Below are positions 9 through 15,400 of a stretch of 64,000 nt of DNA, piece by piece. Both the position numbers and the translations under genes were made by a program. The stretch's first letter is position 1, and every line of letters begins with the position of its first letter. The DNA is from Capsaspora owczarzaki ATCC 30864 (taxonomy: Eukaryota > Opisthokonta > Filasterea): the NCBI RefSeq assembly GCF_000151315.2, contig NW_011887292.1:2271181-2335180 (forward strand), in the 5' to 3' direction. The notes beneath the pieces were generated by a model. The model was not told the origin of the DNA, searched no databases, and saw nothing but the letters and a program-made list of their open reading frames with translations.

Positions 9-3000
9 ATGCTGCCTGTGCGGCTGTTGTCCGACACTCCCACGTTGAACTGGTACCCGTTGTGCCGCGCTACTCCGAAAGATATTGTAAAGGGTGAGAT
101 TGAGCTGGAAATCAGCATCAACCCGCCAATCGACACTTTCGAACAGTCCTCGCTTCATGCGGAGCTGTTTGAGATGTGCCGCTACAAGGGCCTGAATGTC
201 ATGGTGCTCTGCCACGACTTGAGTGACCATGCTCGGAGCAACACGAGCACGCTAGATGGTCGGGTCTTTACGCCATCCTTGTCACCACGCTCTCAGAATG
301 CGATAACGCGAGCGGTGTTTGAAATACCCGGACCGGCCGAAACCATCGAGCTTGCGGTGCCCGACGTCCTCATTGATGTTGGAGGGGCACGAACAGCGGG
401 GCGAGTGTTTCTGACCAACTTTCGGCTTGTGCTCGTGAGCGAGCGAGATGCGGCGGCCGCTGCGCAATTGTCGTCTCAGGCAACTGGCCCCTCACGACAG
501 CCAGCCGGTAATACAAGCACCAACCCACCCACTTCGAGTGCCAGCGACGCAGCAGGACCCCCATTCACTGCTGCTTCGACTGGAGACCTTCTTGGTGTCG
601 GCCGCTCGCCAAGTCTCCGCCAGTCACCATCGATCGGCTCGCTCGCAGCGCGCCAGTACTACTCACAGGGACCATCTGGCTTGCAGCTTTTGTCTGCCGG
701 TGTTCTGGCTCTTGAAGGCGGCGATTTCTCAATGTCCATTCCATTTGGCGTCATCACGGAGGTGTCCAAGGGAAATCCAGAGCAGGTGCGACGACAGCAG
801 ACAGCCGGCACCGTCGACGGATTCAAGATTGATGCCAAATCGCTAACGATTCGGTGTTCCGATTTCCGCAACATTCGCATCATTTGCCATTCGGACGCGT
901 CCATCCTGAACTTTAACGCGCTGAAACGACGCCTGCAGCACCATCACGCGAACGCTGCCGATCATCCTGTTGCCTACGATTTCGTCAAGGCCTATCCTAC
1001 CCTGACACGCGGCTGGATGTACCGTCCTTCGACCGATTCCGTTTCTGCCAGGTCGGCCACCTTGCAACAGCAGCCTTCTGCTGGCGCCACCCCATCACCC
1101 CAGTCCGCAGATCCCGCCTCGACGAGCGCCGCTGCTCCGAGTGCTGATGCAGGCGGCACCGCCCAAGCTCCCTCCAATGCCGATGGAGAGTCATCCAAGC
1201 TCATGTATTCGTTGAGCATTAACGACCTTGATCTCGTCGGTAGCGAGCCGGATCTCGTTTTCCAGAGCCCCACTCCTTCACCTCATCCGTCGCAGCAAGC
1301 GGACGCCCTCGTTCCTTTGCCCGCCATTTCTGAGCGTCGCAAAGCTCAGCTGATACTCGACATGCCGAACGCTGCCCTGCCGCCTCAAACGCTCAATGCT
1401 GCGACTCGACCCCAGCTCTCCCTGGTGCAGCAGCCAGCGACTTCGGCATCGCCCGCTCCAAGACAGGAAATCTGGCCAGAACCCATCGCGCAAGCCGTCA
1501 TCCCGGCACGTGTGCAGTCGCCCCCGTCTGGCGAGACGCCAGGGAGTCGCACGCCAGTCGAGTTTACTCCGTTCGTGCCCGTGCGGTCGTTTGACATGAG
1601 CTCTGAGATGCGACGACAGGGCGTCCTGCCCGACAAGTGGAAGCTGTCCACGATCAATGACCTCTACAAGCTCTGCTCGTCGTACCCCGACGAGTTCTTT
1701 GTGCCCGCAGAGATTGATGACGACATTTTGATTGAATCCGCTGCGTTCCGATCCCGCGGACGCCTGCCGGTGCTGACCTGGTACAACGCCCGCAAGGGCA
1801 ACGTTATTGTCCGGTCTGCGCAGCCGCTGGTTGGCGCCACCAACAAATACTCGACTGCAGACGAGCGTCTCATTGAAACGATCCGATGCCTCGGGTCCCC
1901 TCAAAAGCATCTCGTCATCTTTGATGCGCGCTCAATCATGGCCGCCGGCGGCAACAAGCTCAAAGGAAAGGGCACCGAAGACACGGCTGGTCGGTACACC
2001 AACTGCAAAATCCTCTTTCTCGACATTGGCAACATTCACGCAATGCGGGACAGCTTTGATGCCCTCGCTGCCATGTGCGAGAGCGCCCCAGATGCCAGCT
2101 GGCTTTCCGCACTCGAGTCGACGCAGTGGCTATCGCACCTGCGTTCGTTGCTTTCCGCCGCTGTGACAATTTCGCGCTACGTCGACGACCGTGGCATGTC
2201 TGTTCTTGTCCATTGCTCGGATGGCTGGGATCGCACTGCACAGCTCACGACGCTGGCGCAATTGCTTCTGGATCCCTTTTACCGAACCTTCCTCGGCTTT
2301 CCAGTGCTGATCATGAAGGATTGGCTTGCGTTTGGCCACAAATTCCGCGAGCGTCTCGGCACGCATGATTCTCCGAACGAACGCAGCCCGATCTTTTTGC
2401 AGTTTCTCGACTGCGTTTGGCAGATTCAGCAGCAGTTTCCGAGCGCCTTTGAGTTCAGTGGCGAGTATCTACGTCGCATTGCCGAGCACCACAACTCAAA
2501 GTGGTTTGGCACGTTCTTGCACAGCACCGACAAGGACCGTCGGCTGAATCAGGCCGCGACTTCAACCGTGTCCATTTGGGCCTATCTCGATGCATCTCGC
2601 ACCGAGCTCCGCAATCCCCACTACGAGTGCACCAATCAGGTTAACTTAAGAAGACGAGCGCAAACTCTGAAAAAACAATTCGAAAAAAACAAAGAACAAA
2701 AAGGAAGAAGAAACACAACGCTTCATTCGACGCATGCTCACTCATTCGTTGTCTTTCATGCAGGTGTTGTGCCCGAAAACGAGCGTCAAATCTTTGCGTT
2801 TATGGAGCCAGTACTTTTTGCGCTTTGACGAGCTGTCTCGCCTCGCAAAAGATGTACCAGAGGACGACGACGTGGTACGTGTTTGATCATGTTCGATTGT
2901 ACATGGATGCGCAACAATCCTTCGATTTGAGTCGTTTTGAAGGGCGCAGCTGACCAATCTCCAATGGTTTAACACGTTCAGACCGACAGCGGTTCCATCA

Positions 3001-3450
3001 TTCCAGGCCAAGGGACGACATCTCAAGTCGGGCCCAGCGCGACGCCGACTGTGGTTATGTGGGTGCCAGATCACCGAGTCAAAGCATGCCACGATTGTCA
3101 GCTTCGTTTTTCGCAACTCCGGCGCAAACACCACTGCCGGTAGGTTGCCTTTTGGAGCACAATACGTTTCGGTTTCGGATGTTGCTTGGTAGAATCTCAC
3201 TGTGGCTCCATCTGATTTTTTTGCCCCCCCCCCGCCTCCACCTTTCAAAACGCACAGTGGATGCGGTCAAATATTCTGCAGCGAATGCGTCAAACAGAAG
3301 CTTCATCTTCCACAGCTGGGCTACACTGCAGAAGAGAAAGTTTGCGAGACTTGTTTTGCCAAGTACAACCCTCAACCGAACGTCGTGGCACCCTCGCAAC
3401 CCGTCCCAAAGTCACTTGAGGTGCGCCCGACGCATCTTTTCGACACGTAA
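9..3450 (+). CDS. Myotubularin-family phosphoinositide 3-phosphatase with FYVE finger (5' end outside window)
   Basis: Four exons: ..2639, 2764-2874, 2982-3139 and 3258-3450, with consistent phases; 1,030 residues from the first visible ATG. The frame is open to the window edge and the first ~35 residues look like the last strands of a C2 domain, so the true start is probably upstream. Next come a PH-GRAM domain (about residues 95-320) split by a Ser/Ala-rich insert, a long Ser/Pro-rich linker, and the phosphatase domain (about 520-900). The catalytic loop HCSDGWDRT has Cys and Arg of CX5R intact, so activity is expected. The last two exons encode a FYVE zinc finger with RKHHCRGCG and paired Cys. 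The family removes the 3-phosphate of PI3P and PI(3,5)P2 on endosomes, and FYVE binds PI3P. It resembles MTMR3/MTMR4, which lack a C2 domain. Confidence 0.93.
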
Positions 3451-3620
3451 TGATTGTAGTACTAAGAAACACCAAAGCAAACAACATGATTGATAAAGTG
3501 CGAATTGGTTGTTCGATGATCACACAATGAAGGGTTTATTATTTCGTGGTTCCGAATCGCTACTCTTTGTTCACAAGGTGGGCCAGAAAATGAAGTACTG
3601 TGAAACTCCTTTCCGCGCTT

Positions 3621-5269
3621 TCACTCGGGGTGCACGGCGGGATAGGAGCGCGAGCCAAAGATCGTGCTTCCAACCCGGATGTTGGTGCTGCCCATAGAAA
3701 TCTACATCATCAGAATAAGGGGGCCCCGGTCAGCACGCAGCAAAAAAATCACCTCCTAAACCCACGAATCAACAAGGACTCACGGCATGCTCAAAGTCGT
3801 CCGACATTCCAAAGCTGAGTTCCAGGTCTGCCGCACGCAGCGACAAGCTTTCTGCTGTCTGCTGCCGAATCTCGTTGAGAAGCTGTTGTTCAGCAAGGAG
3901 TGGGGGGGGGGGAGAGAGAGTCAGCGCACAGAAGCGACACGATAAACAATCAACAACAGCAGTCTTGCTGGCTGAAAACCTTGCTCAAGTCCGCCCAAAA
4001 CGTACCAAAAAGTCTGGATTGGGAGAAGCTTCCGAGCACTGACGGCCTGGTTGCCCAATGGTCATCAGTCCGCACAAGCGTAAATGCGGGCACTCGTTCA
4101 CAATGTGTCGAGCCACAGCAATAGCTTCCGCCGCGTTCGATCCGCTTTTGCCTGTGTGTAACCGCGGCCGCCAATGAGCACAATGACACTATCGGGGTGG
4201 CGGGGGGGGGGGGTCACCGTGTCAACCAACAAACAGCTCAAGAAGTTGGTAACGCACTGGTTTCACCGCTGGTGTTGACTTGTACAAACACCCGCAACGG
4301 AGAATCGCGAGTCTGCTTGGCACAGGCCTTCTCCAGTGCAGTGGCAAGTTTAACGCTGTCGACTGTCTCGACGACAAAGAGATTTGGAATTGCTGTGCCA
4401 GTGCAACGAGTGGATCAGCGCTGCTGCATGGACAACCCAAAAACAAACAGCAAACCGCCCGCGCATACGTACCTGCGACATGGGATGCCTTGTTCGACTG
4501 CAAGTGACCAATAAAGTGCCACTGGATATCGCGTGGCAGCTGCCACACAAACAATCACGAGCCAGCGAATGAGACAAGCACCAAACTTCGAACGCCGATT
4601 TTTTCACAATGTGCATGGTTGATCGGCATCATCCATGATGACAAGCGACATACCCCGGACGCTTTTGCAACCAGCTCTTGAACCTGAAATGAATGATTTT
4701 GCACAAAAACCAAAACGCAGAATGCAGGCGCGAATTGAGAAAAACCAATTTCAAAAGCAGTTCTATGCCGACCCGCAGCCAATAGCTCAACAAACAGCAA
4801 ACATTACAAAAATACGCACATAGTTTTCACCAAAGTGACGCTGACCCGCACCATACGCGGCCTGGAGCAGCGCGTTCGGCTTGGTTTTGGAGACGGCGAC
4901 CAGCCTGACTGCATCCGCCTCGCCGGCCACACGACCGTGCTCATCCGAAGCAGAAGTAGAAACAGAAGCAGACGAGGCCGCCTTCTCGGCGCGCTTGGCG
5001 ACTGCAGCACTCATGCGGCCACGCACGGCCTCGAGCGCAGCGACGACGGCGTTCAGCTCGGACTCGGTCGGCTGCTCCTGCGGCGCTGTACTACTGTCGC
5101 TCATTGCTTGGCGGCGGTTCTTGTAAGGCTTGTGAGTCACTGGTTGCGATGGCGAGGATGGGCTTGTTGATGAAGAGTAGCAGTAGCCGACAGTTGCAAC
5201 GAGGCTGTTGAATCGTGGTGACGATGGACTTGAGGAGAGTAGACCGCGCGATCGCAGCAGCAGCAGCAT
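3621..5269 (-). CDS. PLPBP: Pyridoxal-phosphate homeostasis protein (PLPBP/YggS family)
   Basis: Seven exons on the minus strand: 5269-4820, 4683-4654, 4539-4473, 4392-4267, 4151-4006, 3882-3784 and 3701-3621. All phases agree. The first ATG (5269) gives 332 aa with an Arg/Ser-rich, mitochondrial-like N terminus. An internal ATG at 5104 gives 277 aa, the usual family length, so either or both may be used. Family landmarks in order are VAVSKTKP (the PLP-binding Lys), HFGENY, WHFIGHLQSNK, FVVETVDS, GLMTIG and GMSDDFEHA...GSTNIRVGSTIFG. The protein is a single-domain alanine-racemase-like barrel that binds and buffers PLP and has no known enzymatic reaction. Introns 4 and 5 contain 10-12 nt homopolymer C runs on the coding strand. 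Confidence 0.95.
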
Positions 5270-5648
5270 GAGGACTGATCTGGATAAGATTCTGTACTGT
5301 ATGATAGATGGAAGGAGTATCCCAGATGATACCCGTCATTCAGTGTCATCAAAGTGCACGTACAACACTGAAATGACAGCAGCAGCAGCAATCCAATAGA
5401 ACAGGCATTGTTTGATCTCCTTCGCTCCCTCAGTGGTGAATGCTGGTCCAGTGCTGATGTCGTGCAAACGTGTGTGGATTGTTCATTGTACAAAAAATCC
5501 ATCTGTCATTCCTATTTTGGCTCGCTCAGTCTCAGTTTTTTTTTGTTTCCCTCCTGCTTTGTTTTCTTGTTGTCTTGGCGTTGTTGTCAAAGTGGGGTGT
5601 TTTTTTTTTCCCTTTACTTTGACTTGAACCAACCACACAACAAACACA
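5270..5648. promoter_or_regulatory. Divergent intergenic region (PLPBP / mitochondrial protein)
   Basis: The 379 bases between the two divergent start codons must hold both 5' UTRs and promoters. Only pyrimidine-rich stretches just before the plus-strand ATG are visible; no clear TATA box was seen. Confidence 0.4.
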
Positions 5649-6659
5649 ATGCAACGCCTGCTGCCAGTCACTGGGTGGTCTGCAACACGCGCTGCGTCCT
5701 TGCTGAGCGCTTGCTCGACCATTGCGCTGCGTCGCCGCGCTGCCAACCCGGCAATGTCGTTCAGCACTGCTGCCCAGGCACCGGCCAACAAGCAATCGTC
5801 GGGCCAGTGGACACGCGTGGGCACTGCCGTGGCTGTCATGCTGGGCATTGCGACGCTGCTGCAAGGGACCAAGGCGCAGGACCGACTGGCGCTGCTCGAG
5901 CAGTGGGCGGAGGATCAGCTCCGCTCAGTGGTGTGCACGCTCGGGTTGTACCAAGCGCAGCTTGGAAAGCGACCCGTGCTGCTGCCTGTGATTGAGCACC
6001 TGGAACGCGAGCGCGAGGCTCAGCGCAAGGCGACGATTGTGGGCAAGCTGCCGTCCGACCCCGAGCACATGGAAGCCATCTTCCGCGCGCACTCACCAAC
6101 CCTAACGCGGATTCACGAGTATCTGGCCGAAACAGAGCAGTCTCACGAAGCACCGATCGTCCGGCGGCTGCGGGACGTGCTTCAACGACAAGAACAGCAA
6201 CAACTGAGCTCTTCTTCTGCTGCTGGGTCGAGCTCGTCGTCGTCGTCGTCGTCGTCATGGTGGTCTTCTTCCAGCTCACACTCAAAACAGCAGCAAGCAC
6301 AAGGCCAGCACGACGACCCGGCCATCCCGCTGTCGGTCGTCCTCGCTGGGCTGCGTCAGGTTGTTGCCGAGCTCGAAACCGAGGCACTCGACCTCGCTCT
6401 CCCGCTCAGACTCTGGCCACAAGCGCCGAGCAGCTTGCAAAACCCCGATTTGTGGAAGGACTACATGACAGAGATGGAGCGCAAGGCCGATCTACTCACC
6501 AACCGCAGCATTGGCGAGGCACGGCTGTCGATCGACTTCCAGTACGACAAGCAGCCTGCAGTAGCTCCTCACGCGCCCACCTCCGCCGCATCCTCCAGCG
6601 CAACTGCAGTAGATGCTGAATCATCCAAGCCCTCATCATCTGGCACGCTTGTTGCTTAA
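5649..6659 (+). CDS. Unrecognised protein, probable mitochondrial membrane protein
   Basis: Intronless frame of 336 aa. The first ~40 residues are rich in Arg, Ala and Ser with no acidic residues, like a mitochondrial presequence. One predicted membrane segment follows (about residues 57-74, VGTAVAVMLGIATLLQG). The rest is charged and mostly helical, interrupted by a Ser run (about residues 190-218, TCG/TCT codons) followed by a Gln/His patch, and ends in a Ser/Ala-rich tail. I do not recognise a family. The arrangement (presequence, one membrane span, soluble helical domain) would fit an inner-membrane protein facing the matrix or intermembrane space, but that is inference. Its start lies 379 bp from the divergent PLPBP start. 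An AATAAA overlaps the stop codon. Confidence 0.75.
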   Translation: MQRLLPVTGWSATRAASLLSACSTIALRRRAANPAMSFSTAAQAPANKQSSGQWTRVGTAVAVMLGIATLLQGTKAQDRLALLEQWAEDQLRSVVCTLGLYQAQLGKRPVLLPVIEHLEREREAQRKATIVGKLPSDPEHMEAIFRAHSPTLTRIHEYLAETEQSHEAPIVRRLRDVLQRQEQQQLSSSSAAGSSSSSSSSSSWWSSSSSHSKQQQAQGQHDDPAIPLSVVLAGLRQVVAELETEALDLALPLRLWPQAPSSLQNPDLWKDYMTEMERKADLLTNRSIGEARLSIDFQYDKQPAVAPHAPTSAASSSATAVDAESSKPSSSGTLVA

Positions 6660-7020
6660 TAAAAATACTCCCCTAGTAATGTAGAGTGCTCCATTCGATC
6701 CATTAGACAACCACAGAAAAAGAACTATTTACTGAGACAGTGATACTTGACAGGGGGCCCACAAACAACAGAATAAAGCCGATGCAACCCGCCAAAAAAC
6801 ATAAAAACCCCAAAAGAAGGACCCTCCTACTAAGCCCAATACCAGCAGAGCGAAGCGAAAGCAACCTTCTCGAGTCACGTCTTGCGTTGGAGAGCAATCA
6901 CAAGAACGAAACGCACATACACACACACACACACACATCACGCACAAATACGCATGCTAGATAAAATGACCATGGAAATTGAAGCCTCGATGGTTGCCAA
7001 AACGACCGGGAATGTCAGAT
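6660..7020. other. Convergent 3' intergenic region
   Basis: No gene seen. Contains a short CA repeat near 6918-6940. It separates the 3' ends of the mitochondrial-protein gene (+) and the ADAM-like gene (-). Confidence 0.5.
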
Positions 7021-10000
7021 TTACGGCAATGGCTTGCGAGGAGCAGCGGCACCAGTGGGCTTGAAGGGTGGAGGCGTTGGCTTGGGGGCACCAGGCACAG
7101 GCTTGCTTGGAGTAGAAGAAGCACCAGCAGGTCCGGGCCCTTTGGGGCCGACGGGCTTGAGAGGGGCTGCTTTGAACGGCTGGGGAGCGGCGGGATTGGT
7201 CGGAGCTGGGCGTGTGGTGGGTGGTTTGGGCGGCGCAGCAGGTTTGGCCTGCGACACGGGCTCGAGGTAGTTGGATGGAACAACACCCGTACGATTGGTC
7301 GTCGAGTTCTTGCAATGGTACCACCCATCCTCGCCCTTCTTGGAAACAATCACCACGTCGCCGACAGACAGGGCCAGTTCGTCACCCTGCTGAGGGGTGT
7401 AATCGTACACGGCGCGGTACTTTTCGACAGCGCTGGAACTGGCGTTCTGAACGGGGGCAGGAGGGGCGGGCTTGCGAAGCTGCGAGGTAGCCATTGGAAC
7501 GGCGGGCTCTTTGACCGCTTTGGGCGACGGTTTGGTCGGGGCCGAGAGGACTTCCAACGATGCACTGGAGCCGCCGGTCTTGGCTGAGCGGCGATTGCTG
7601 GAAGGCGCGTGGAAGGAAGGAATGATGCTCAAGCCTTTGCGACGGCGGTACAGCACTGCTGCCACAATCACAAGGAGGAGCACGACAAGGACAGCGACAG
7701 CGACGCCAATGGCGACAGCCGAGCTCGAGCTTGAGCTGGAATCACCATCCGGGTTGCCATCAATCGGCGCAGCGGATGAGCAAGGAATGGTGCACGATGT
7801 AGTGCTGGCCGGTTTGGAGCCAGAGCAGGACGCGTCGGGAGCAGTCGAGCCGTCGCTGCCAACGCACTTGACCAAACGTGTGAGCGTGCCGGATGCGGTG
7901 GAAGGGCAGCGCGGCGCAACACATGCGCCATACGCAAAGGTACTCCAAGAGTACGTCATCGTGCTTGCCTGGCACGTATACACGGTGGTCGATCCTGCCT
8001 GGAGTTGGCAGGTAGAGTAGGGCGCCACGCCGCATGTTGTGCCTGCAGGCAGGTAGTTTTCATCGAGACTCGACACGCTTGTAGCATCAGTGCACGTGGT
8101 GGATCCGTCAAACCTGCATCTGTAGAGACAGGGGTTGGTGCTGCTGACTCCGCCTGCCGGGCATGGTTTCACGTTGCTGTATTTGCTGCACCCGCTCTTA
8201 TAGCACGTGCCTTCGACACAAACGCCAGTAGCCGCCACGCCATCCATGACGGAGCAAACCGTGGTAGGCGGACTGAATTTGCACGCGCTGCAGCACGTGC
8301 CGGTGGCGCATTGTGAGCCAGAAGTCAACTTGCAGTTTTTGCAGCACGAGCTGGACACGTCGCACTCTTCACTCGGCTCGACAACGCCGTTGCCGCACGT
8401 GGGGGAATACGGCGTCCAGCACGAGGGCACGCTGGTTGAAGCCAGGGTGGATTGGATTTCAGTGCACATTTCGGCCTTGTTCTGGGCAGTGTAGAACTGG
8501 TACTCGCCGAGATACTTGCCATCGCCATAGTCCATGATGCCGCCAAAGCCAAATGTGTGCTGGGCGCCAAAGTTGTGGCCAGTCTCGTGTGCGTGAGTAA
8601 TCCAAAACTGGGACGAGTCGGACGACACGCCCGTGTTCGAAGTAGACGAGCACAGGGTTCCGACATACGCCAGCCCAACCGTGCCGGAAGGCGGGAAGCA
8701 ATTGGTAAAGAGATGCCAGAGACCGTACGGCTCGGAGGCAGGCCGAGTTTGGCGCCACGAAGTGAAATCCGTCAGAACCTTGTTGATGTCGTTGGTGCAG
8801 GTCCGTTGACCAGGAGTGCTTGGCTTCTGGTTCCAGGCGGTCGAATCAAGCGAGCTCTTGAGGACAACCAACCCCAGCTTGAGGAACACACCCACTTGCG
8901 TGTTGTAGACCACGTTGGTCGTGGCCATCGTCTCGGCAATCTTGGTCTTGACGGCGGATGCAGAACCGCCCCAATCGAGATAGAGACCATAGTCGACCGC
9001 GACGCTTTGCGTGAGGGTGGACAGCTGTGTGTTCGAGTTGGTGAAGCAGTCTGCCCACTTGGACACGGTACGGCGGGAATCCTCCACGTTGTCAATGCGC
9101 ACCGATCGAGGCAAGGTGCTTTCGCCGACTTGGCGCCTGTTTGTGGCGCCGTCACGGAACCTGGCTGCCGTGGAGGTCACTTCCAGCACATCCGCGCCAT
9201 GGAAGAGAACGAGGCCTGTGGCAGCGGCAGCCTCGCGAAGGGACCGACGATGCTCGTCCGAGGGCATGGCGGCTTCGTGGCGCACGGCGGGTTCGATCGT
9301 GTAGTGGCCTGCGGGATCAAAAACGACCATGTAAAAGCTGTTTTCGTCGTCATGGAGCACGACTGCCGCATGGAAACCCTCCACGGTTTCACCAGCATAC
9401 GCGCGCATTGTGTGTGGCAGGCGCTCAATGATCTCGGGCTCGCCGGTCTCGGGGTGTGCGCCGTGCACTTGAACGTACGTGTCTTCCGCAAACAGACCCA
9501 CGAGGAGGGAGGCCTTGACCTCAATGTGCTTGCCGCCAGCGACGTACACATCAATGTTAATGTCCAGCGGGAACTTGCGATGCGGCGCCAGCTCAGAGAT
9601 GGCGGTTGTGTTGTCCATGGCGGCCTGGCGACGGTTGCGGAGGATGGCGTCCTGGAGCGACTCTGCCACCGCCCACGGGCTCGTGACGCTGCCGTCCTTC
9701 TGGTTCAAGGTGGTCACCTTGGCGCCGACGACGGGGTACAGGCGACTCACGGTGGTCGACGGCATCGCGTCTAGCGCAAGCAAGCGGAGAACAAGAAAAC
9801 AAAAACAAAACCAAAAACAAAAAAAAAGGGTTAGTCTGGTCATTGTCATTGGTGATCACCCCACCAGCCACACACCCTCAAGCTTAGTCACATTCGACAA
9901 CAACAACAACAACAACAACAACATCAGCAGACGAACGAACGAAACGAAAGAACGAACGAAACAAAGTGAATCAATCAATAAAAAAAAAAAAAAACCAAAA

Positions 10001-10424
10001 GTCGCTTGAAATGGCAAACTGCAAAAAAAAAGTCCCATCCAAAAAACCCGCAAAAAGCACTTGGAAAGCGGAGGAGTGACAGGCAGTGAATGAAGAAGGA
10101 GAACAAGTCAGGAGAGGAATGGATGGGGGGGGGGATTAAGGATTAAGGGATGGGGAAGCGAAGGAAGGCAACTAAGAGGAGGAGGAGAGGGGGAACTTGC
10201 GGTTGCTTGGGAAAAGACTCGTTGGGCTTTGTGGCGGTTGATTCATCATCATCGCCCTTCCCTCTCGCTTCTCATCAACAGCCAACAGCGCGACGAGAGG
10301 ACTCTGGAGAATGATGAGAGGAAGCATGAGGGCTACCTTCGTCGAGCGGTGCGGGAACGCCGCTGACCACGGCGGCAGTGAAGGCCAAGACCGAGAGCAG
10401 CAAGCCCAAACCACAGATTCGCAT
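7021..10424 (-). CDS. Transmembrane ADAM-like (M12B) metalloprotease with disintegrin-like, TSP1-like and cytoplasmic SH3 domains
   Basis: Two exons: 10424-10337 encodes a clean signal peptide (MRICGLGLLLSVLAFTAAVVSG) and 9770-7021 the rest, joined in phase 1; 945 aa. A start at 9849 would be intron read-through, because a CTAAC and a T-rich tract precede the acceptor at 9771. A pro-domain of ~200 residues is followed by the protease. HETGHNFGAQH (about residues 424-434) fits the metzincin zinc motif HExxHxxGxxH, with a Met-turn GGIMDYGD just after. Then come a Cys-rich disintegrin-like region beginning CGNGVVEPSEECD, a TSP1-like segment, a Ser run, one membrane span (about 710-735) and RRRK. 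The tail has an SH3 domain (about 814-868: AVYDY, DELALSVGD, DGWYHC, GVVPSNYL) flanked by Pro-rich motifs. It should be a surface sheddase. Confidence 0.92.
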
Positions 10425-10632: not shown

Positions 10633-12077
10633 CTAGTACGCGCCAAGCACCCGCTGCACGTCGCACTCAAACACATCGCCAAAGTGCTTGAGTAATATTG
10701 GCAGCGTCTCTTCAGTGGAAACTGTCCAATCCACACCACCGCCACAGAAGTTGTAAGCGCTCAACTCTAGCATTCACATGCACACATAATACTGACTGGC
10801 TCTTCTCGTACCTTCACGCTGAACTTCGCGAGACAGTGATGTTACACTCTTGCCGACCAAGCCGCAGGGCACAATGTGAGAAAACCAGCGCAAATCCGTT
10901 TGGCAGTTCAGAGCAAAGCCATGCGAGGTCACTCGCCGCTCATGTAGCTGAATGCCTGTGGAATCCATCCAAACACACACAAACGGTATGAGTGATACTG
11001 CATCCAAGGGTTTGCCGCACAACGCATCTTGCTCTATCGATTGGCCCGCCGCGTCAAACTCACCGAGTGCGGCAATCTTGTTTTTGCCAACCCAGACTCC
11101 AGTGTCGGCTGTGAGCTCCGTCTTCACTCCGAAATCAGCGCACGTGCGCATGAGAACCACTTCGAGTCGCCGGACGTAATCCTTCACGCTGACCTGAGAG
11201 ATGAGCAGAATGCAACCAGTTGAGAACGCGCGCAACAACGACATCCTCGAAGCGTCGTTAGGGTCACGCCGAGTTCAAGGTGATTTTCTATGCTTTCATA
11301 CTCGATGGGAAAAGGCTGCGAGATTGAGTATTGGGTAGCCAACCAGCTGGCCTGGACCGTGAAATGTGATTTGACCTCCACGACTCGTCTGAGAAAACGT
11401 GCACACCTTCATCAGAGAACGTTTCACGCATAGCACAAGGCATATACGGACTCCCAGCTCGCCAACAAAAATAAGAAAGCAAGTTCCTACATAGACGTAT
11501 TCGGCTCCCAGTGCTGCTAGCCTGGCAGCCTGGTCTGCATCGTGCTGCATACGGCGTCCAAGCGTGTAGACCGGATTGTGCTCGAGCAGTAGTAAATCTC
11601 CTCCATTGGCCGTCACAGCGCCGGACGTTAGCTTCGTATTATTCTGTAGCATTTAGATGACGATTTGCAATCAAGCGCACGCATGAGAACAAAGTCAGAC
11701 CGAGGAATTGTCAAACCGATGGATGGATGGTGGTGTGGCCCCCCTCGTCATCAGAGCCAGTGCGATGGCCACTGGTCGTGCCTCGGCATCCGAAACACGA
11801 ATCTCAGATGTGATTCAGTTGAATGTGCCTATACCTGATTCGCCAGCTTCGAGCTCGATGCGGGCTCGCCGAGAGAGCTGGGGGCTGCGGCGGGCTGTGG
11901 CGGCAAGACCACCGTGTTGCGCCCGGCCAGAACGTCGCCCACAAAGCGCAGTTGCGTATCAATGCCCTCTGCATAGCCAACACGGCCGAGAATGCGTGCA
12001 GCAACGGTAGGCCGAGCCGCAAGGTGCGACGATGCTGCAGCTAACGCTCTCGTGGCGGCAGGTGCGTTCGCAAGCAT
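10633..12077 (-). CDS. LIPT2: Octanoyl-[acyl carrier protein]:protein octanoyltransferase (LipB/LIPT2)
   Basis: Six exons: 12077-11835, 11643-11491, 11388-11302, 11193-11064, 10955-10812 and 10721-10633. Phases agree throughout, giving 281 aa. The first ~35 residues are Ala/Arg-rich and fit a mitochondrial presequence. LipB landmarks in order are [47 protein letters not shown] with the catalytic-site Lys, and SHGFALNC...[12 protein letters not shown] with the catalytic Cys in PCG. The enzyme moves octanoyl from mitochondrial acyl carrier protein to lipoyl domains, the first step of lipoate synthesis. The extra length over the bacterial enzyme is mostly presequence. Confidence 0.94.
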
Positions 12078-12446: not shown

Positions 12447-15400
12447 TTAGTCGTACAGAGTATCAATGAGATCGCTGTACTTGACTTGAATGACGCGACG
12501 CTTCAGCTTGAGCGTCGGGCCCAGCTCGTTGCCGGGGATGGAAAAGTCGACGGGACAGAACGCCCAGCGCTTGATCGACGCTGCGTTCGAAATGGCGTGC
12601 TTGTTGACCTCCGCCATGCTAGCTTCCACAACATCGTTAAAGACCTTGTCTTTGACGAGCGCCGAGACGGTGCTAATGTCGGCTGGCGACCAAACCACCC
12701 CCCAAACAAACAAACAAACCCAGAAGAATTAAAGGTCAGCATCCTAAAACGCCAAAACAATCCATCAAAAAACCAGAAAACACAGAATTCTCCCCCCCCC
12801 GTGTTTACCTTTCACGCCAGCGTCAGCCAGCTGCAGCTTGCATTGCTCGGTCAGCTCATCCAGCGGCGCACCCTCCTCGTCAAACTCGCACTTGATGGTC
12901 AGAAGAACGACAAGATACTTGCGCTTGTCACCAACAATCATCGCTTGACTAATGTACGGCATTTGGGTCTTAATGAGGGACTCGATGGGGGTTGGAGCAA
13001 TGTTTTCACCACCAGCGGTAATGACCAGCTCCTTGATGCGGCCAGTGATGCGCAGGAAGCCTTCGGCGTCCAGTTTGCCAATGTCGCCAGTGTGCAAGAA
13101 GCCGTCTGCGTCAAAGTCCTTCTGCGAAGATTCCGCGTCGTGGAGGTAGCCGAGCATGACATTGCGACCGCGGACAACAATCTCGCCGTTGCCGTCGGCA
13201 TCGGGCTTGGCAATGCGCACTTCCACGCCGTCAGGCACGTAGCCACACGATCCCGAGCGGTACTTGTTTGGAATGGAAACGGTGAGCAGCGCCGTTGTTT
13301 CAGACATGCCGTACAGCTCGTACACTGGAATATCCAGACTCAAAAAGTAGTGCAGAGTGGACAGCGAAATGGGCGCCGCACCTGAAAAAGCAGCTCGGCA
13401 GCGGTCGAGACCGATGGCCTTTTTGACCTTGGCAAAGACCAGGCTCCTTGCCAACCACCAGCCAGACGGCTTGCCCTTGGTCTTGCCTTCCTGAATCGCC
13501 AAGTTCGCGGCCAGGCCTTTCTTCTTGGCCCACCCAGCGATGGACTTTTTCACGGCGCCGTTCGACGCGCCAACCATTTGCATCTTTTCGGCAATCTTCT
13601 CCCAGACGCGCGGGACGCCCAAGAAGGCCGTGGGACGGACCTCACGCAGGGTGTCACCAAGCGTGCCCTTCAGAGCATCCGGCTGCGCGAACGCCAGCGT
13701 GGAGCCCAGCACAGCTCCGGCCATAACATCAATCATCATTGCGGCAATGTGGCTGAGAGGCAAAAAGCTCAGCAGCACATCTGACTCGACGATTTTAAGC
13801 AGCTGCGAGACGACGTGCACGGTGAACAGAATGTTATCGTGCGTTGTCATGACTGCCTTGGGATTGCCGGTTGTGCCAGACGTGTACACGATGGCGCAAG
13901 GCTGCTCGGGTCTCAAGTTGGCAATCCGCTGCTGCAAGGGCTCCTCCAGCGCGGCGTCGTCACCTGTTGTGTCGGTCGCGTGAGCGGAGGAGAGGTGACG
14001 TTGGTAAGTCTGCCCGAAAAGGTTTCAAAAAAAAAAAAAAAGAAAAAAAGAAGAAGAAAAAGAAAGCTGACAAACAATCATCAACGAGGTTTTGTTACCG
14101 AGAGCCATGAAATCGTCCCAGGAGTAAATGTTTGGCTCGGAGACAGAAGGCTTGCCAATGTACTGGACAATATGTTTGAGATCGGGCAGACCTGCAAAAC
14201 GTCGTGACAGTGATGGTGGTCAGAAAACGTCCGACTCAAAAAGCATGTTGGGCAATTCAATTTGTCAAAAACGTACGAGCGCGGACTTCGAGAATCTTGC
14301 GCAACTGGACATTGTTCTCGACAATGACAATGCCGGCCTTGGCATGCTCCAGGACAAACTGGCAGGCGTCTGGGGTGTTGGTCGTGTAGATGCCAAAGCC
14401 GACGCCGCCAGCCATGATGGTGCCGTGGAACGCAATTAGCCACTCTGTTGCAGCCAAAAGAAAACCAACCCGCAAACTGGAATGTGAGTGACGCTTTGTG
14501 GGTTTCTCTCTGCAGCGTTGATGAGAGCTATTAACAAAATTGAGGGAGGAGGACTATTTCCTAAAAAGTGCGGCGGCAAAACCACAAACTGCGAAAATTG
14601 TGCTGCACGTGCAGGTACTGAAACAAGCGGTGGATTCGGGGGCGTCGAGAGGTGCGGATAGGAGTGTTTGCAGCAATCAGTGTCATGCCACACCACATGT
14701 GACGTTGGCAGCTTGATGCGAGAGGGGGTTGAGGGGTTGGCAAGTCGCATGAATAAGGCACTTCATGGTTACTGCTTGTTATCGCTCTGTGGGGTTTAGC
14801 TCGTTGCCTTTCAGCGTTTCCTCTTCGCACGCATGCAGTGATGTTGTTTACACATCAGATGTGTCATACAGTTGAACGGATTGGGGTTTTGGGCAAAGTT
14901 TTTTCGGGTGACCTCCTCCGAGAAGAAGCGATTTTCAAATCAAAGGAAAAGAAAAAAAAATCAAATAAAATCAAAAAAAAAAGACCACAACAACCAAACC
15001 AAGCCAAGCAAGTGTGGCCTCAAGCAACGCGCAGAGCCCTTCCGCCAAGCCAGGCGACATCGTAACGAAAGGATCATGACCGAGTCCCACGGAGGTGGAA
15101 GCCGTTCACTGGCAGCGTTGCAAAGGGGGCTCGAAATCACACCAAAATCATGAAAAGTAAAAAACAAAAAGAAAAAAAGGAAGAAACGGACATCTGGTCT
15201 CATCCGATGACCGATGACGAGCGAGGGGTCTGAAAGCAGTGCGTGGGGAGTGTGTGTGCACCGGTGGACTCTCAGGTGTCCCACAGAAATGGTCTGCGGT
15301 GCTCTTCCACAGCTCCGGACAATAAAAGAAAAAAAGAAAAAAAGGGTCGAAGCAAAGAAAAAACGAAAAAAATAAAAAGCACAACAAATTGTAGCTGTAA

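Follow-up and report, generated by a model that had tools for sequence, protein, structure and literature searches.

Animal ADAM metalloproteases carry cytoplasmic tails that bind separate SH3 adaptors and kinases (PMC4380453), partners that are typically tied to sorting and endocytosis (PMC4380453; PMC4103893), and these tails are 40-250 residues long and probably without stable structure (PMC4885070). Here we describe an ADAM-like gene on the minus strand of a 64,000-nucleotide stretch of the genome of Capsaspora owczarzaki ATCC 30864, a unicellular relative of animals (contig NW_011887292.1, positions 2,271,181 to 2,335,180; the whole stretch is called the window hereafter), whose predicted product has a tail that itself contains an SH3 domain.

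The window protein shares with animal ADAMs (ADAM8, 9, 10, 12, 15, 17 and 19) an M12B protease, a putative, weakly matched disintegrin-like part, one transmembrane (TM) span and a tail with SH3 ligand motifs. It differs from them in the built-in SH3 domain, in a TSP1-like segment ahead of the span, and in the lack of a match to ADAM_CR, the Cys-rich domain that has been called an ADAM hallmark (PMC4885070). With ADAMTS proteins it shares M12B and, putatively, TSP1-type sequence, a combination that is plain in two paralogues of the window gene on contig 7; in the secreted ADAMTS enzymes, TSP1 motifs replace the TM and cytoplasmic parts (PMC4885070). The window protein, in contrast, has a TM span. 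Fus1p and Sho1p of yeast are also membrane proteins carrying an SH3 domain; neither is known to have an enzyme ectodomain, and Sho1 has four spans. The SH3 domain of Fus1p is able to bind formins (PMC3817587). The likeness of the window protein to Fus1p, which is one of sequence only, comprises a signal peptide, a TM span, an Arg cluster and an SH3 domain on the predicted cytosolic side. PEX13, present in the same genome, likewise joins a membrane span and an SH3 domain in one protein; it differs in having a Peroxin-13_N domain, and is a peroxisomal protein not known to have a secretory ectodomain. Among the matches listed in a search of the open-licence PMC literature, with subscription papers and supplements outside its scope, we recognised no description of an M12B-TM-SH3 protein or a TM-SH3 tail in Capsaspora, and the available portions of a domain-combination study including Capsaspora (PMC3499355) and of a choanoflagellate gene-family study (PMC6040629) do not mention the architecture. 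In the literature seen to this extent the parts are known, their order has not been seen in print so far, and a tail shared among genes was unexpected.

Recurrence of the tail across ectodomains

We read the product of the window gene as an ADAM-like metalloprotease with type I membrane topology, ending in a copy of a TM-SH3 cassette that acts as a handle independent of the ectodomain, and give this reading a probability slightly better than even (roughly 0.53). The evidence that carries it comes from the 27,456,641-base assembly (29 contigs), which was searched with the 917-residue product of exon 2 (P0001); Pfam matches were made with this protein, and P0001 numbering is named where used, residues being counted otherwise on the 945-residue spliced protein. 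This search gave 40 matches out of 50 scored candidates. The protease part was matched by two frames on contig 7 (46 and 43% identity), with an SH3 domain far downstream in the same frame, and the TM-SH3 part was matched at 34-46% identity in four more places, each beside another ectodomain. In addition, a genome search with the PF00018 profile yielded 101 SH3 matches, for 77 of which flanking or upstream DNA was read in frame and checked for a TM span. Another 6 lay in loci already read, 12 shared a frame or locus with examined matches (the DNA between the SH3 domains was not always covered) and 6 were left out. The survey added one TM-SH3 gene (L112), and as a positive control the same scan recovered PEX13 (Peroxin-13_N 4e-28). 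Hydrophobic stretches ahead of the SH3 domain in L022/L027, L025/L032/L045, L040, L055, L070, L079 and L080 were excluded by eye, as they look like T-rich introns or 5' regions.

In total, the TM-SH3 tail is found on at least eight genes with five kinds of ectodomain: three M12B, two M60-type, one PLD-like, one with Cu/Zn-SOD repeats, and one distant member with TSP1 and LamG domains. As a TM span in a separate exon escapes the scan, eight is a lower bound, provided that the exclusions by eye are right. The layout of the cassette is a Ser-rich stalk, the membrane span, an Arg cluster, a flexible linker, the SH3 domain and usually a Pro/Lys-rich end. An alignment of seven tails (the window protein and L056-L061, including two near-identical pairs) contains 21 invariant columns, 18 of which fall in the SH3 domain and include both tyrosines of the ALYDY type, the RT-loop Asp-Glu, the Trp, the Pro and the last Tyr; we take these invariant SH3 residues to be those of the ligand pocket. 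Outside the SH3 domain the invariant columns comprise a Ser and, following the TM span, two Arg. The SH3 domain of L112 is distant and has lost several pocket residues.

The tail is present on three of the five M12B genes in the genome, the frames of the other two (L062 and L063) ending in short tails without an SH3 domain, and on both M60 genes. It was found at one of six PLDc_2 places and one of four Sod_Cu places; no PF00018 match was listed in the frames of the remaining PLD and SOD places, the gene ends themselves not having been read. In viral contigs, 87 stretches matched a pattern, 0 of them related to alignment A1, and a PADLOC search returned 0 families.

Some of these genes have features of their own. 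The tail of the SH3-less ADAM L062 (frame 2836-4959, plus strand) weakly resembles the ubiquitin-binding CUE domain (E 0.0038, 17.3 bits against a cut-off of 21.1). The ectodomains of the M60-type pair also match Pfam domains named for a bacterial immunomodulating metalloprotease, which may indicate lateral transfer before the tail was gained.

The window gene and its product

The gene is predicted to consist of two exons, which, as originally predicted, join in frame through a GT-AG intron into 945 residues and a stop codon (Table 1). A form retaining the intron would also open with ATG and a hydrophobic stretch, and is probably still secretory. Protease, membrane span and SH3 domain all lie within a single stop-free frame of 944 codons, which contains exon 2.

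Table 1. Coordinates in the window of the features of the ADAM-like gene, followed by the other genes of the assembly that carry a TM-SH3 tail
Feature	Position	Strand	Basis or remark
Exon 1: start codon plus signal peptide (about the first 22 residues)	10337..10424	-	88 nt; translation starts MRICGLGLLLSVLAFTAAVVSG, hydrophobic windows from residue 1
Predicted intron, GT-AG, long pyrimidine tract ahead of acceptor	9771..10336	-	566 nt; from sequence only
Exon 2: remainder of protein, open to stop codon	7021..9770	-	2750 nt; 917-residue product (P0001)
M12B (reprolysin/ADAM) catalytic domain	8548..9006	-	Pfam Reprolysin_5 E 5.9e-23, P0001 257-409
Zinc-binding motif HETGHNFGAQH (HExxHxxGxxH)	8557..8589	-	Intact; starts at residue 424 of 945
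Disintegrin-like segment, partial	8248..8376	-	Pfam Disintegrin E 7.3e-5, 23.9 bits vs cut-off 35.1, profile positions 2-54/75
TSP1-like segment	7786..7908	-	Pfam TSP1_ADAMTS E 2.6e-4, 21.6 bits vs cut-off 23.8
Single membrane span AVAIGVAVAVLVVLLLVIVAAVLY, Ser run before, RRRK after	7648..7719	-	Hydropathy; column-aligned with six paralogues
KPAPPAP, candidate class I ligand in the linker from span to SH3	7453..7473	-	Count not above composition expectation
SH3 domain	7255..7422	-	Pfam SH3_1 E 5.3e-15, profile positions 1-48/48; residues 813-868
Pro-rich C-terminal tail, 35% Pro	7024..7254	-	No confident structure predicted
L056 and L057: M12B + 14 TSP1 + LamG3 + TM + SH3			Pfam of frames
L058: PLD-like (PLDc_2) + TM + SH3			Pfam of frame
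L059 and L060: M60/IMPa-type peptidase + TM + SH3			Pfam of frames
L061: 10 Sod_Cu + TM + SH3	frame 1349-8152	-	Run of N inside frame
L112: TSP1 repeats (7 TSP1_ADAMTS matches) + LamG3 + TM + SH3 + YDPV-type tail repeats	contig 2		1166/2045 codons read, neither end reached

The original prediction had placed M12B, disintegrin-like, TSP1-like, TM and SH3 parts in this order. M12B, TM and SH3 stand, whereas the disintegrin and TSP1 matches are weak: both fall under the Pfam cut-offs and emerge only from searches restricted to short segments, and TSP1_ADAMTS was not among the matches listed for a longer segment spanning the same stretch. Matches of venom metalloproteinase-disintegrin proteins (phmmer) extend to P0001 residue 509 or further, and the TSP1-like stretch is included in an alignment with the paralogue L057 that runs through P0001 residue 662. 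ADAM_CR gave no Pfam match with the whole protein at E 0.1 or with two Cys-rich segments at E 5; residues 461-700 contain 28 cysteines. Neither was there a Pfam match to the M12B prodomain in P0001 residues 1-218 at E 5, and both contig 7 paralogues align to P0001 already from residue 7 or 8. The Met-turn sequence IMDY is intact at residue 441. In the paralogue L057 (frame 1367-8047, plus strand) the zinc motif reads HEMGHNFNAQH, with Asn at the Gly of HExxHxxGxxH, and its protease activity may be altered. A sequence search of the PDB with P0001 matched venom metalloproteinases and ADAM22 to parts of residues 257-522 (best 60 of 327 matches); a single-sequence model of the catalytic region (P0001 219-506) had a mean predicted local distance difference test score (pLDDT) of 36.9 and was not used.

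The single hydrophobic span covers residues about 714-737 and is followed from residue 738 by RRRK, with the SH3 domain downstream, as had been proposed. Together with the signal peptide, this Arg cluster would, by the positive-inside rule, put the SH3 domain on the cytosolic side. The SH3 domain, predicted at about residues 814-868, proved complete, with a strong match over the entire profile. AlphaFold modelling of the tail from its sequence alone, interpretable for the SH3 domain only, gave pLDDT values of 77-89 for ten-residue blocks of this domain and 40-57 for the flanks; a Foldseek search with the model returned SH3 structures, the top one being POSH SH3-4 (TM-score to target 0.85). Many SH3 domains in the PDB sequence search also matched P0001 782-851 or nearby (best 60 of 327). 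The best were, in order, p47phox (two stretches summed), PSTPIP1, vinexin and sorbin, and an origin from Tks5/p47phox was considered.

Pro-rich ligands had been expected on both sides of the SH3 domain, and candidates are indeed there: KPAPPAP, ending about 12 residues ahead of the domain, and four motifs after it. Their numbers, however, do not exceed those in composition shuffles, with one canonical PxxP motif in the linker (expected 0.49) and four in the tail (expected 2.55). The neighbours on the minus strand, at 10777-11274 and 12768-14024, are ordinary genes, one resembling lipoyl ligases (LplA-B_cat) and the other AMP-binding acyl-CoA synthetases.

Ancestry and divergence of the cassette

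Trees were built from 77 SH3 rows and 59 columns, all from this genome. They exclude the near copies ADAM_B and M60_B, rows that duplicate a cassette row, L080, and three sequences of fewer than 38 residues. With FastTree, one group (support 0.757) comprised the six cassette SH3 domains together with C12:980811, a frame without a TM span, and the truncated exon C4:1065474. In a more careful tree the six cassette rows required 2 label changes compared with 5.8 in shuffles, and 0 of 500 shuffles were as low. A tree that held the six together was 17.3 log-likelihood units better than the free search, and with a p-value of 0.742 in the approximately unbiased test a single clade of cassette SH3 domains is not rejected. 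No TM span was seen in the open frame of the truncated exon C4:1065474 (L113; 2,000 bases read); this exon could belong to a ninth cassette gene that encodes its TM span separately, in a different exon, or to a soluble relative. Taken from these sequences, a shared origin of the TM-SH3 tails is likely, though not proven.

The two M12B paralogues L056 and L057 (ADAM_A and ADAM_B) lie on opposite strands of contig 7, some 25-30 kb apart. Their N-terminal third has diverged (amino-acid identity 49-71%), as has the Pro-rich end, while codons about 1119-2318, which cover the TSP1 repeats, LamG3, TM span and SH3 domain, are 93-100% codon-identical. This pattern of identity probably reflects gene conversion or segmental exchange. 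The ratio of nonsynonymous to synonymous substitution rates (dN/dS) for the tail of this pair is 0.319 overall; for the M60 pair it is 0.154 in the 75 C-terminal codons, where the SH3 domain lies.

What the tail may do

The original prediction suggested that the SH3 domain might inhibit its own protease or pair proteases through their tails. In this ADAM-specific explanation, which we consider unlikely, the domain would bind the Pro-rich ligands that flank it, either in the same tail (in cis) or across two tails (in trans), and so switch shedding off or dimerise the enzyme. The class I motif ahead of the window SH3 domain and the four motifs after it would suit such a switch, and a linker motif is also present in the PLD and M60 copies. 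The motifs are nevertheless not conserved among the cassette copies: ADAM_A, ADAM_B and the SOD protein have no canonical motif between TM span and SH3 domain, the M60 copies stop at the SH3 domain, and of the 12 non-empty segments tested just one, the PLD linker, exceeded shuffles (p 0.028). The single-sequence model, with no confident structure outside the SH3 domain, says little either way. Neither self-inhibition nor dimerisation as an ADAM-specific role is favoured, given that the same tail is carried by unrelated surface enzymes, non-proteases among them. The original prediction had also named a direct link from shedding to tyrosine-kinase adaptors, and a connection to adaptors may exist. 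That the tail might instead be a signalling receptor module, in which an ectodomain meeting its substrate brings SH3 tails together and triggers signalling through tyrosine kinases or adaptors, is an explanation we also regard as improbable. It would agree with the SH3 adaptors and kinases bound by animal ADAM tails (PMC4380453) and with repeated YDPV-type tyrosines behind the SH3 domain of L112; among the tails read, however, an obvious repeated tyrosine motif occurs only in that distant member, and not in the window protein or the other six close copies.

Two further explanations deny the SH3 domain a function or a place in the gene. Were it a functionless remnant of gene fusion, with the tail mattering just as a membrane anchor, then the loss of several pocket residues in L112 and the relaxed dN/dS of some tail regions would be expected; pocket residues that are invariant across seven close copies and the dN/dS of 0.154 at the SH3 end of the M60 genes make this very unlikely. 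The suggestion that the SH3 domain belongs to another gene and was joined to the protease by an artefact of the gene model, a model that was built on genomic sequence alone, was rejected, and we hold it to be extremely improbable. As M12B, TM span and SH3 domain share one stop-free open frame, the SH3 domain should not be part of a neighbouring gene, and the order of TM span then SH3 domain is repeated in seven other frames.

An ectodomain-independent handle is the simplest account of a tail found on five kinds of ectodomain; given that range, the role of the tail does not have to be tied to shedding by an ADAM. In such a handle the SH3 domain would face the cytosol and could bind partners rich in Pro, or else tails of the other cassette proteins. 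By analogy with the membrane-borne SH3 domain of Fus1p, the tail might thereby place or cluster ecto-enzymes at actin-rich or endocytic sites, or couple them to adaptor machinery, and this role would be the same whichever ectodomain is attached.

Several points weigh against this reading. The 59-column SH3 tree has few supported forks, and the six cassette rows form one side of a branch in 0 of 200 bootstrap trees, because C4:1065474 joins ADAM_A (99/89); support for the cassette group with C4:1065474 is 67/15, or 92/61 without L112. In the FastTree result, C12:980811, for all its lack of a TM span, falls inside the cassette group. The TM span and Arg cluster by themselves could be convergent, and L112 is distant, with several pocket residues gone and 1166 of 2045 codons covered. 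Selection also appears relaxed outside the SH3 domain, with a dN/dS of 0.384 for the whole M60 tail and of 0.80 for ADAM_A over codons 2019-2168 (13 changes). The whole evidence base is one genome, and the mechanism, partners and placement of the proposed handle are deduced from its sequence.

A broader proposal, which we advance tentatively and at less than even odds, is that one exchangeable TM-SH3 tail evolved in a lineage of unicellular animal relatives and was grafted onto protease, phospholipase-like, SOD-repeat and matrix-type ectodomains, giving "enzyme receptors" under one cytosolic SH3 code. If true, the exchangeable tail would be a fused form of the partnership between ADAM tail and SH3 adaptor that animals keep as separate proteins. 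An ADAM fused to an SH3 domain in a unicellular animal relative offers a direct test of what this partnership does and of whether it predates animals. One kind of intracellular tail on unrelated surface enzymes is, in addition, a natural experiment in domain grafting, and the eight tails on five kinds of ectodomain make a ready set of constructs for asking what a membrane-borne SH3 domain does.
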